Virus record (IMG/VR): IMGVR_UViG_3300020394_000014
Coordinates: 1 to 44,118 of that record
Strand: one strand, 5' to 3'
DNA length: 44,118 nt
From: a virus
The notes beneath the pieces are model-generated. The model saw only the letters and a list, made by a program, of their open reading frames with translations. It did not search any database and was not told the origin of the DNA. Positions 21,999 to 25,454 of this stretch are shown here, in pieces; positions within the stretch are counted from its first letter, which is position 1; the number at the start of each line of letters is the position of its first letter. The position numbers and the translations under genes were made by a program.

Positions 21999-22574
21999 TT
22001 ATAACTCATCAGGCCAATCGGCAATAGGTGGGTTTCCAGTAGGGTTGCCATCATCATCCATAGGCGTGTCAAATAAAGCCATGAACGCTGCATGGTCTGC
22101 TGCATTTGTTATCGCTGTCTCTATCTGTCCAGACTTGGTGCGAACTGCCGCACGATATGTTGTCACGTTGGACGGTATTGTTGTTGTGCTGTCTTCAGCT
22201 TTGCGTGTTACATACCAATCCGTCGCAGATAATTTATTATTTGCAGTTTGTTTTGTCTGCTCTATATAAACTGTTTTTAATCCCTTTGTGACAAGCTGCT
22301 TACCTGTTATAGGGTCAATAACTGCTTTGTTATCACCATCAACTGCCTTTACATCAGTAAGTGACTTTGGTATAAGAGTTCCATCATCTTGTCTACCCCA
22401 ATAAAAACGATTATCGTAAGGTGCTTCAGATGCAGGTGGGTCTTCCCATGTTAGCCCTGCTGTCTTTTTATCAGCATCAGACCAAATGTTCCAGTTATAA
22501 GGATGCTTAGTGCCATCATTATCTGTCCAACCACGTCCTTCTTTAATTATTTTATCGCCATATTTCCACGGCAT
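21999..22574 (-). CDS. Tail-fibre assembly chaperone-like protein (191 aa)
   Basis: The C-terminal third, SATDWYVTRKAEDS through TYRAAVR and ending PIADWPDEL, follows the same TDW ... YRaalR ... WP pattern as the three short chaperone-like genes at 26-28 kb. The N-terminal part (MPWKYGDKIIKEGRGWTDND...) is a separate Trp/Tyr-rich module. It directly follows the 956-aa fibre and is probably its dedicated chaperone. Family link by pattern only. Confidence 0.55.
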   Translation of the reverse strand: MPWKYGDKIIKEGRGWTDNDGTKHPYNWNIWSDADKKTAGLTWEDPPASEAPYDNRFYWGRQDDGTLIPKSLTDVKAVDGDNKAVIDPITGKQLVTKGLKTVYIEQTKQTANNKLSATDWYVTRKAEDSTTTIPSNVTTYRAAVRTKSGQIETAITNAADHAAFMALFDTPMDDDGNPTGNPPIADWPDEL

Positions 22575-22583
22575 TACAATCTC

Positions 22584-25454
22584 CTATTCGGCATTACTAT
22601 ACTTAAATGGCTGTTCAGAAAAAGCAAGGTACACAAAATTATCACCTGATGCATTTGACATGACATTACTCGTACCAATTTCAAAACCGTTACTAAGAAA
22701 AAAACAAGAAACTGTAGCAGAATTACCCTCTGAGTTTGATATATCCGCTTGTAAAAATTTAACTCCTGATGTTCCTCCGGTTCCATCTGGTCTAGTGTTA
22801 TCAAACATACCCCAATCTGCACCAGTTCCTTCATCAATGCTTTTTATCAAAAGAAAAGCAGGTTTAAAACCTGTGTAAACAAATGTAGTTGCATTATTTC
22901 CAACATAAGTACCAACTTTGCTGTAACCATCAACGCTGTGAAAACAATACGCAATGTAATTGTTTGACAAGTTTAAAATATTCGTACCATTGTAAGTTCT
23001 AAAACCAAATGTTTCATATGTTATGTAATGAGCAGAATTTTCTTGGGCATCGTTATTGGAGGTGTTCAATGACAGTAATTTATTTGCAGAAAGAAGATTG
23101 CTATTCACGCCCCAATTGTAAGTATTATCATCTCGATTTTTTGTTATTACTAATTTATCTTTCCCTGACCAACTCAACCCCACACCTATTGTCTGTTGGC
23201 TTGTTGCACCAGTTCCAGTGTAGCTAACTATACTAAATCCTGCCTCAGTATTTGCAGAAACTGTTGATTGCACTGACCCATCAAAATTGCTTGAGCCATG
23301 AGTGCTATTAGTGTTAATTTGACCACCCATTCCAGAATGATACTGGCAATAATAATAAAGGGTTGGCGCACCTGCTGCTACTGTAATTGTAGTTGTGTAA
23401 GCAGAATCATCTTTGACCACACCTGTTGTGTATTCAGTACCTCCACCGTGTGTGCCATTGGATGTAGTGCTAAACCTTATCGGATGACCTTGTGCTGATA
23501 CAACCCCATTGGTTCCATCATCTGACCAATCAAAAACATATGTGCCGCCCTCTTGCAATTCTATCGTTGGTGCGTAGGTTGCAAATGTTGCACTATCTGC
23601 ACTATTTCTAAATCTATATTTATTTGCGCCATCGTTATCAACAACGACTTTATAAGTTTGGGTAGTAGGCGTAGTTCCTCCAGCCAGCCAGTTCCATGCA
23701 ACATAGGTTGAAGTATTATTGTTAGTATCTGAACCATCTCCCACAGAGAAACCGTCACTGTCAAAACTTGTCAGGTTTGTTGTGCCTAAATAGGTTGAAC
23801 TTTCTTCACTGTTTTTTTCATTTGAATAAAGTCGCTTATGGTCACTACTAACAATTCGCAAACTGTCATAAAGATTATGATATGCTGTGCCACTACGCTG
23901 CTTAATCCATACCCAATCAGGTTGAAAACCTACGCCTGTAACGCTTCTTGTTGAGCCTGTACCAGTGTACAACACCGTATTAAAATGGTCTGATGACTCT
24001 TCGTTCTCTGCAGGGTCAATAGCAGGGTCAGGTAGGTTGGCCGAACAAAGGGCTAAAAAACCTGAAGGTGGTGTGTAATAAAAATCACCTACACCATTAT
24101 CATCTGATGCTGCTGCTGACCCAGATGTTTTATTATTAGCAAAAGAACTATCTTGACCAAAATTAACTACATTTACATTAGATGTTCCGTAAGCTGAGTT
24201 AGCTGGAAACCAATCATGTTCGTTTATACTAGATATTGTATAAACTAGACTATTATTCTTATAAAATTTTAATTCACCCGCATCTGCATCAAATGAACAT
24301 CCAATTATATCGCCTGTTGTGTAAGATGTCTGGCCTGACGCTGATGCTGTACCAGAGGTAATACCATCACCAGATGTTCCATATATAAATGTTGACTGAT
24401 AACCAAACCCAGAAACATTCCCATTAGGGTCATACCCAACAAAAGCATTAGCATTAGCATTTGTACCTTTGGTTATCCCTACATTTGAAACATTTTGTGC
24501 TTGTATTAATGTTTCCCAATACCACTTTCCAGACCGCATAGCAAAAGTACCATTTGCTAAAGCATAGTTACTGTCTCCTGTAAACTTAAGATTGCCTTCT
24601 GAAAAACTTTGGACTGTACCACCGTTTGTAAAAAGTGGATTCAGTGTGCAAAAATTATTTGTAGGGCTGTCTAACACCACATCATCTGCTACAAGACCCC
24701 CGACTGTAAAGGCAGGACTTAGAGTATTGCCGCCTGTGTTATCACCTATTGAAGAACTGTCTTGAAACTTTAATCTATAACCGTTCGTACCAAATGTTAA
24801 ACCAGATGTATCTTTAGGAACCCAAATGCCAGCTTTTGTTTCACCAAATGAATCTGCATCTAAAGCAGTTCCGTCAATAAAATTAACTTCTGCCAAGTAA
24901 CCGCTAAGATTGTCTGTACTTGCTCGTGAAGAGCTACCAACATAATGCGTTGCGCCTGTCCAGTTTAAATATGTATCAAGAGTAGCTGATGATGGAGCAG
25001 TACTAGTTTGAAACGAAGTTATTTGCGTACCGTTTACATATATTTTTACTCTATCTGTACTTGTTGCCTGAGTTATATCTACTTCTACAACAAAATGATA
25101 CCAAGCAGATGGGTCTGTAAAAACAGCATTTGTTTCATAAAAAATTTCATAACCACCTGTATATTGGTAGAAAGAAATAATGTCGATTTTTGACCCTGAG
25201 TAATAAAATGCAAAATGTGTAGAACTTCCAGTGTAAGGGCCAGCACTAAAAAGCGTGTAAAAATTTTGCGAAGTTCCAAGAACTGAGCGTTTTACCCAAC
25301 CACTCCAAGTCCATGTCCTTCGGTTGCCTGTTGTACCGGGTGTGCGAGATAAAACAGCACTACTACCACTATCAAAACGTGCGGATTGGTCTATAGAGTG
25401 TGAATAAAATTGACTAGGTTTAAACCACTGTGAAGAGCCTAATGGACCTGACAT
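22584..25454 (-). CDS. Large tail fibre: LamG-like, SPRY-like and cupredoxin domains
   Basis: 956 aa. A concanavalin/LamG-like module (about 45-205: TWSGWVKRS ... VKIYVNGTQ ... YLAEVNFIDGT) is followed by a SPRY-like module (about 308-435: GKWYWETLI ... VGITKG ... GELKFYKNNSLV). A repeat module from about 493 (VLYTGTGSTRSVTGVGFQPD) to the end (YLAFSEQPFK) is interrupted at about 598-718 by a cupredoxin-like domain with His657, Cys703, His706 and Met709 (YYCQYHSGM), a complete type-1 copper ligand set. All these folds suit binding to cell-surface sugars or proteins, so this is a receptor-binding fibre candidate. It is followed by its likely chaperone. Confidence 0.75.
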   Translation of the reverse strand: MSGPLGSSQWFKPSQFYSHSIDQSARFDSGSSAVLSRTPGTTGNRRTWTWSGWVKRSVLGTSQNFYTLFSAGPYTGSSTHFAFYYSGSKIDIISFYQYTGGYEIFYETNAVFTDPSAWYHFVVEVDITQATSTDRVKIYVNGTQITSFQTSTAPSSATLDTYLNWTGATHYVGSSSRASTDNLSGYLAEVNFIDGTALDADSFGETKAGIWVPKDTSGLTFGTNGYRLKFQDSSSIGDNTGGNTLSPAFTVGGLVADDVVLDSPTNNFCTLNPLFTNGGTVQSFSEGNLKFTGDSNYALANGTFAMRSGKWYWETLIQAQNVSNVGITKGTNANANAFVGYDPNGNVSGFGYQSTFIYGTSGDGITSGTASASGQTSYTTGDIIGCSFDADAGELKFYKNNSLVYTISSINEHDWFPANSAYGTSNVNVVNFGQDSSFANNKTSGSAAASDDNGVGDFYYTPPSGFLALCSANLPDPAIDPAENEESSDHFNTVLYTGTGSTRSVTGVGFQPDWVWIKQRSGTAYHNLYDSLRIVSSDHKRLYSNEKNSEESSTYLGTTNLTSFDSDGFSVGDGSDTNNNTSTYVAWNWLAGGTTPTTQTYKVVVDNDGANKYRFRNSADSATFATYAPTIELQEGGTYVFDWSDDGTNGVVSAQGHPIRFSTTSNGTHGGGTEYTTGVVKDDSAYTTTITVAAGAPTLYYYCQYHSGMGGQINTNSTHGSSNFDGSVQSTVSANTEAGFSIVSYTGTGATSQQTIGVGLSWSGKDKLVITKNRDDNTYNWGVNSNLLSANKLLSLNTSNNDAQENSAHYITYETFGFRTYNGTNILNLSNNYIAYCFHSVDGYSKVGTYVGNNATTFVYTGFKPAFLLIKSIDEGTGADWGMFDNTRPDGTGGTSGVKFLQADISNSEGNSATVSCFFLSNGFEIGTSNVMSNASGDNFVYLAFSEQPFKYSNAE

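Follow-up and report, generated by a model that had tools for sequence, protein, structure and literature searches.

Does a marine phage display a complete copper-protein domain on the fibre that it probably uses for gripping its host, and what would the metal do there? The question is raised by a fibre gene in a virus record of 44,118 bases, analysed here over its whole length (the window). The original prediction had read, within this gene, a cupredoxin-like domain with the four type-1 copper ligands. The window comes from an HMO-2011-like marine phage, as judged from its related portal, terminase and coat genes; over this matched structural region the nucleotide identity to Puniceispirillum phage HMO-2011 is 78.8%. 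The other arm carries a DNA polymerase, a DnaB-like helicase and a ribonucleotide reductase.

The fibre and the site of the insert

The gene, its domains and its downstream neighbour are arranged as follows.
22584..25454, minus strand: fibre or virion structural protein of 956 aa (ORF translation, Pfam, PHROG 19943, annotation of relatives)
24153..24527, minus strand: SPRY domain, residues 310-434 (Pfam E 8.7e-10)
23673..23996, minus strand: DUF7483 repeat 1, residues 487-594, directly preceding the module (Pfam and repeat comparison)
23289..23663, minus strand: cupredoxin-like module, residues 598-722, about 125 aa (junctions in fibres with and without it, domain alignment, models)
22596..23252, minus strand: DUF7483 repeat 2 and probably repeat 3, residues 735-953, past the module (Pfam at 717-949, repeat comparison; repeat 3 by eye only)
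21999..22574, minus strand: downstream gene of 191 aa with a weak match to tail fibre assembly proteins or tail assembly chaperones (PHROG 4912, E 3.4e-6; Pfam only 0.064)

PHROGs classifies the product as a virion structural or tail fibre protein (PHROG 19943). Its relatives are labelled LamG-like, lectin, SPRY or virion structural, and it is through their annotation that a LamG-like lectin N-terminus is assigned to the fibre. Membership of DUF7483 (PF24299) is met with 289.7 bits against a Pfam cut-off of 27 bits, in two stretches of which the larger spans residues 717-949; no mention of this family was found in the open-access literature that we searched. The DUF7483/SPRY/LamG-like fibres of pelagiphages, roseophages and cyanophages belong to the same family, with 30-60% identity over the full length.

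The insert had been described as interrupting a repeat module that would be continuous without it. This description does not hold. The insertion point is the linker that joins DUF7483 repeat 1 (residues 487-594) to repeat 2 (735-842), and no repeat is broken; the two repeats share 28% identity (E 5.6e-8). The short form of the linker reads LAGGSAASNTDGTITSSV, and that of the window reads LAGGT-[TPTTQTYKV...NTNSTHG]-SSNFDGSVQSTV. A comparison of fibres with and without the insert, which had been proposed as a check, gives an all-or-none result. We surveyed 54 full-length fibres (the window's and its relatives), found with search patterns that all lie outside the insert, and measured the stretch from AWNW to SANTEAGFS. 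The linker has 18-45 residues, mostly 18-25, in 41 fibres, which lack the module and in no case (0/41) contain CxxHxxM; it has 124-148 residues in the other 13, every one of which contains the motif (13/13). No half-decayed remnant of the module was seen in any of the 54. The module is gained or lost repeatedly in this one linker: on a tree of the fibre backbone from which the insert columns had been removed, its presence switches at least four times (four to five), and the nearest relative of the window's fibre is without it (L017). Among carrier fibres, the insert is more similar than both of its flanks in 85 of 90 (medians 57.5% vs 45% and 37%), which shuffling, stronger constraint, or both would explain.

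Predicted copper ligands and a cupredoxin-like fold

Translation places His657, Cys703, His706, Met709 and an intact YYCQYHSGM at the residues first assigned to them, and adds the minus strand to that description.
23484..23486, minus strand: codon of His657, predicted N-terminal copper ligand, in a GHP motif (invariant in 99/99 and 183/183 copies; aligned with His53 of amicyanin)
23328..23348, minus strand: ligand loop Cys703-x2-His706-x2-Met709 (spacing as in amicyanin, C92-x2-H95-x2-M98)

The module satisfies the ligand order of type-1 copper sites (His, Cys, His, Met, with C-x(2-4)-H-x(2-4)-M). In an alignment of 99 diverse copies (36% mean column identity) only H657, Y701, C703, H706 and M709 are invariant. 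The four ligands are thus four of the five invariant columns among about 104, for which the hypergeometric chance is about 1e-6. Exactly one cysteine is present in each of the 99 copies, so that the ligand cysteine is free and not part of a disulfide. All four ligands are likewise kept in 183 of 183 module copies. Such perfect conservation could have been an artefact, because two of the scans used patterns that contained the CxxH motif. We exclude this ascertainment bias as its cause on three grounds. The fibre-seeded set, collected with patterns that lie outside the insert, keeps the ligands in every copy (30/30); copies matching an EGxTY pattern have C..H..MG in 65/65; and a profile of the N-terminal part, free of any information on C, H or M and applied to loci that included an HPxR-motif-seeded scan, yielded 223 unique copies with CxxHxxM in 222 and CxxHxxxM in one. 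Phage records lead to the same result: H, C, H and M are kept in 18/18 (17 phage genomes and one single-cell marine virus contig, including SAR11, OM43, Synechococcus and Prochlorococcus phages), some of them only 30-35% alike and reaching down to an HMM E of 2e-10. A lack of conservation of the ligands among homologues, which would have refuted the original prediction, is therefore absent in the 223/223 copies that keep C-H-M and in the 18/18 phage records.

Homology to the cupredoxins was assessed by aligning the 99-row alignment with amicyanin, plastocyanin and pseudoazurin in hhalign, with 20 column-shuffled alignments as the control. The amicyanin and plastocyanin sequences were verified against PDB entries; that of pseudoazurin is only presumed to be correct. 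Scores reached 26 (E 4-8e-4) against a maximum of 12.2 for the shuffled controls (n=20). The profile alignment puts the module's ligands in register with this amicyanin/plastocyanin/pseudoazurin set, and His657, Cys703, His706 and Met709 all fall on the copper ligands of amicyanin. In Pfam, PF00127 (Copper-bind) is by far the commonest family match (24/99 copies, best 3.1e-5; the next family has 7), and NCBIfam models for plastocyanin (2e-4) and amicyanin (2e-3) also match module members. The curated PF00127 cut-off is missed (carriers reach 20.3 vs 21.2) and a Pfam search of the window's own copy gives no match; the module is therefore a distinct subfamily that is not filed under PF00127. A sequence search of the PDB with the insert alone or with its profiles returned mainly antibodies, with plastocyanin and pseudoazurin at E 0.35-1.5 only, and was rejected as evidence by itself; single-sequence searches with this module say little.

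The AlphaFold model of the module, built from 99 sequences, has a pLDDT of 88.4, and of 96-98 in the ligand blocks. In module numbering, H59 precedes strand E61-64, C105 ends strand E101-105 and M111 precedes strand E113-118. This is the order expected of a cupredoxin, with the first histidine ahead of a strand, the cysteine ending the penultimate strand and the methionine just ahead of the last. In Foldseek searches of the PDB, two module models both have blue copper proteins as their best-ranked matches (probability 0.99-1.00). Among the leading matches are nitrite reductase, plastocyanin, pseudoazurin, rusticyanin, laccases and amicyanin, and include a pseudoazurin engineered to carry the amicyanin loop; most of the best 50 are cupredoxins. 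No E-value is better than 4e-3 and TM-scores lie at about 0.45-0.58. The model meets the description of a Greek-key beta-sandwich with moderate support (E >= 4e-3, TM about 0.5), and a fold other than that of a cupredoxin, the other outcome that would have told against the prediction, did not emerge: cupredoxins come first, if with modest scores. By itself the fold evidence is moderate; combined with the rest it is strong. The cupredoxin-like reading accordingly stands on the amicyanin-register alignment, the PF00127 and NCBIfam matches, the Foldseek ranking and the strict ligands. Profile homology, ligand conservation and modelled fold together are strong evidence for a cupredoxin domain whose short ligand loop (C-x2-H-x2-M) is of the amicyanin type. 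The geometry of the ligands was not measured.

Comparison with the known blue copper proteins defines what is particular to this subfamily. Amicyanin (type-1 blue copper, e.g. PDB 1aac) shares the ligand order and the spacing H...C-x2-H-x2-M, and one amicyanin model matches a module member. The ligand histidine is followed by P in the module and by N in amicyanin, and the mid-region of the module has a THGGG...YTTGV segment and variable insertions. Amicyanin is a free periplasmic electron carrier, whereas the module is a domain within fibres and surface lipoproteins. Plastocyanin and pseudoazurin (PF00127) are among the top Foldseek matches and their family weakly matches 24/99 copies, but their C-H-M loop is longer than that of the module and identity is about 15%.

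Carriers in viruses and cells

IMG/VR holds at least 560-590 relatives. That similar inserts occur in other marine phage fibres had been suggested, and we find the same domain with all four ligands in proteins of HTVC028P, S-B68, S-TIM5, Melnitz, Mosig, Bellamy, P-SSM2 and P-HM1/2. These differ from the window's fibre in carrier protein and in position, and their annotation goes no further than tail fibre, virion structural or hypothetical. One classification of the carriers was discarded as invalid, since its fibre query included the insert. The BFVD fold matches that bear a name consist almost entirely of marine phage fibres, baseplate wedge connectors and structural proteins. Beta-sandwich proteins of two giant viruses, A0A481YWX9 (Marseillevirus LCMAC201) and A0A481Z6J5 (Pithovirus LCPAC302), also match the module model there (E 2-3e-5). 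In S-TIM5-like cyanomyoviruses the module lies in a structural protein near the portal gene and not in an annotated fibre (L327, S-TIM5 61039-62496); carriers therefore need not all bind receptors. Some contigs have it in other proteins, which share a GWGRGTWG(Q/E)G N-terminus (L034, L035, L043, L068); in three of these (L034, L035, L068) a fibre on the same contig is without it. One viral protein bears two copies in tandem (L066:493-1230).

Cells carry the module as well. In SAR86, Woeseiaceae, OM182 and other marine Gammaproteobacteria it forms the end of lipoproteins that have a CGGGGG lipobox and cadherin-like repeats. It is also present in a collagen-like lipoprotein of a marine euryarchaeote and in giant flavobacterial DUF7507 proteins. 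One of the SAR86 carriers lies within a 1.19-Mb contig and is therefore cellular. The neighbour genes examined show no enrichment of copper-handling genes beside cellular carriers; the commonest neighbours are dehydrogenases, S9 peptidases, CIA30 and MerR regulators. A CIA30-domain protein and a molybdopterin oxidoreductase come directly after the cadherin-cupredoxin lipoprotein in several marine Gammaproteobacteria (L183:6340-9173, L184, L190, L192); this gene neighbourhood is conserved and might reveal the module's function in cells. A secreted protein of Cellvibrionales has three tandem copies, with a DsbD gene upstream (L195:5785-6930). On the domain tree, which is poorly resolved, copies from phages and from cells are intermixed. 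As this tree has few columns and many open forks, we claim no direction of transfer between phage and cell.

What the module might do

Preservation of the four ligands in every one of the several hundred relatives examined makes copper binding by the module very likely, and the attachment fibres of these viruses probably bear the metal, although no experiment shows copper. Homology, ligand conservation, the insertion site, repeated gain or loss and the taxonomic spread are direct observations on the module. Metal occupancy, surface exposure and host contact are inferred, the last from the place of the module in a tail fibre. The reading that we prefer joins these points, and we judge it to have about an even chance of being right: a cupredoxin module, most likely binding one copper ion as a type-1 site, serves as a mobile display module in the fibre linker and makes a copper-stabilised contact with the host. 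The fibre would be made with the site empty or loaded with Cu(I), and copper from the cell or from seawater would then fill it. The metal would lock the ligand face of the sandwich into a shape that contacts a partner on the host surface; copper would stabilise and shape an adhesion module and have no enzymatic role. On this proposal, an exposed linker between DUF7483 repeats would gain and lose the module by exchange, and surface lipoproteins of marine bacteria and archaea bear the same module. Adhesion-like use in cellular lipoproteins, together with exchange in and out of the fibre linker, favours recognition, and the cost of retaining all four ligands favours a metal. Because the cytoplasm in which phage proteins are made contains little copper, the site may be loaded at lysis or in seawater. 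Against this explanation stand the absence of experimental evidence for copper, Foldseek E-values above 1e-3, the lack of a Pfam match for the window's copy and the lack of copper-gene neighbours in cells.

The copper might also be bait. The nearest idea that we found is that of iron in tail fibres: the fibre of Alteromonas phage R22Y has predicted HxH iron sites, in a Ferrojan horse hypothesis whose metal is proposed as bait or ligand (PMC11705849). In both fibres a metal would be held by the phage, by inference in ours, but R22Y would use iron and HxH motifs and the window's fibre a whole metalloprotein domain; a reading of its 956 translated residues found no HxH motif, so that it fails the HxH test of an iron-binding fibre. 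By analogy with what is proposed for phage-tail iron, copper on the fibre would be grasped by copper-binding or uptake proteins of the host surface. A complete site of high-affinity type on the fibres of phages from trace-metal-poor seawater would suit such a Trojan horse, for which the predicted HxH iron sites of the marine Alteromonas phage are a precedent, itself a hypothesis (PMC11705849). The missing HxH motif, the failure to identify an outer-membrane copper receptor as the partner, and cellular neighbours that are not copper genes make this reading unlikely.

A redox role, in which the type-1 site would exchange electrons with the host surface and so gate attachment or conformational triggering, seems to us less likely again. 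The ligand set and short loop are indeed those of amicyanin, an electron-transfer protein, and every copy keeps the methionine, although a type-1 site can hold copper without one. The loop residues S-G, however, are small where amicyanin has a hydrophobic docking patch, the fibre gene has no redox partner encoded nearby, and the presence of the same domain on cadherin-like lipoproteins suggests adhesion.

Our confidence falls further for a sandwich that holds no metal, a cupredoxin fold acting as a carbohydrate- or protein-binding Ig-like module whose four residues are kept for other reasons. Ig-like domains are frequent in phage structural proteins, and some copies match carbohydrate-binding and Ig-like families marginally; this reading has to face a set of H, C, H and M that is strictly invariant while almost everything else varies. 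Cupredoxin folds without copper, such as the ephrins, have lost the ligand set. Another metal or a covalent link at the conserved residues (e.g. Zn, which like Hg can be bound by apo-cupredoxins, or a crosslink from the equally invariant Tyr701 to Cys703, two residues further on) is very improbable, given that type-1 copper sites have His2-Cys-Met in just this order and register and that amicyanin and plastocyanin also have an aromatic residue at the place of Tyr701.

That no role had been established for the insert agrees with our search of the open-access literature, subscription papers being outside its scope: we found no paper that connects phage fibres with a cupredoxin, with plastocyanin or with copper in this way. 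Single proteins may bear an automatic superfamily annotation. What is new is the subfamily and its setting; the fold is a known one. Should copper be present on these fibres, virus groups that are among the most abundant in the sea have metalloproteins on their outside; metal supply could then affect who infects whom, and phages would join the pool of dissolved copper ligands. An extension of this idea, copper-dependent infection in the ocean, remains doubtful: many marine phages would display a working type-1 centre on their fibres, loaded after release from copper in seawater or lysate, their attachment would depend on copper supply or redox state, and the module would be exchanged with copper-bearing adhesion lipoproteins on marine bacteria. 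That surface lipoproteins of bacteria and archaea share the module suggests a marine domain for adhesion or recognition that has so far gone unrecognised. Cultured carriers allow direct tests: HTVC028P, Mosig and Baldr for SAR11, Melnitz for OM43, and S-TIM5, S-B68 and P-SSM2 for picocyanobacteria.

Apart from the ligands, His669 in the THGGG segment is kept in 154/165 copies, and Gly672 and Tyr675 in more than 90% (residues 669-675, window positions 23430-23450). A second functional loop, conserved but separate from the copper site, may lie in this segment.
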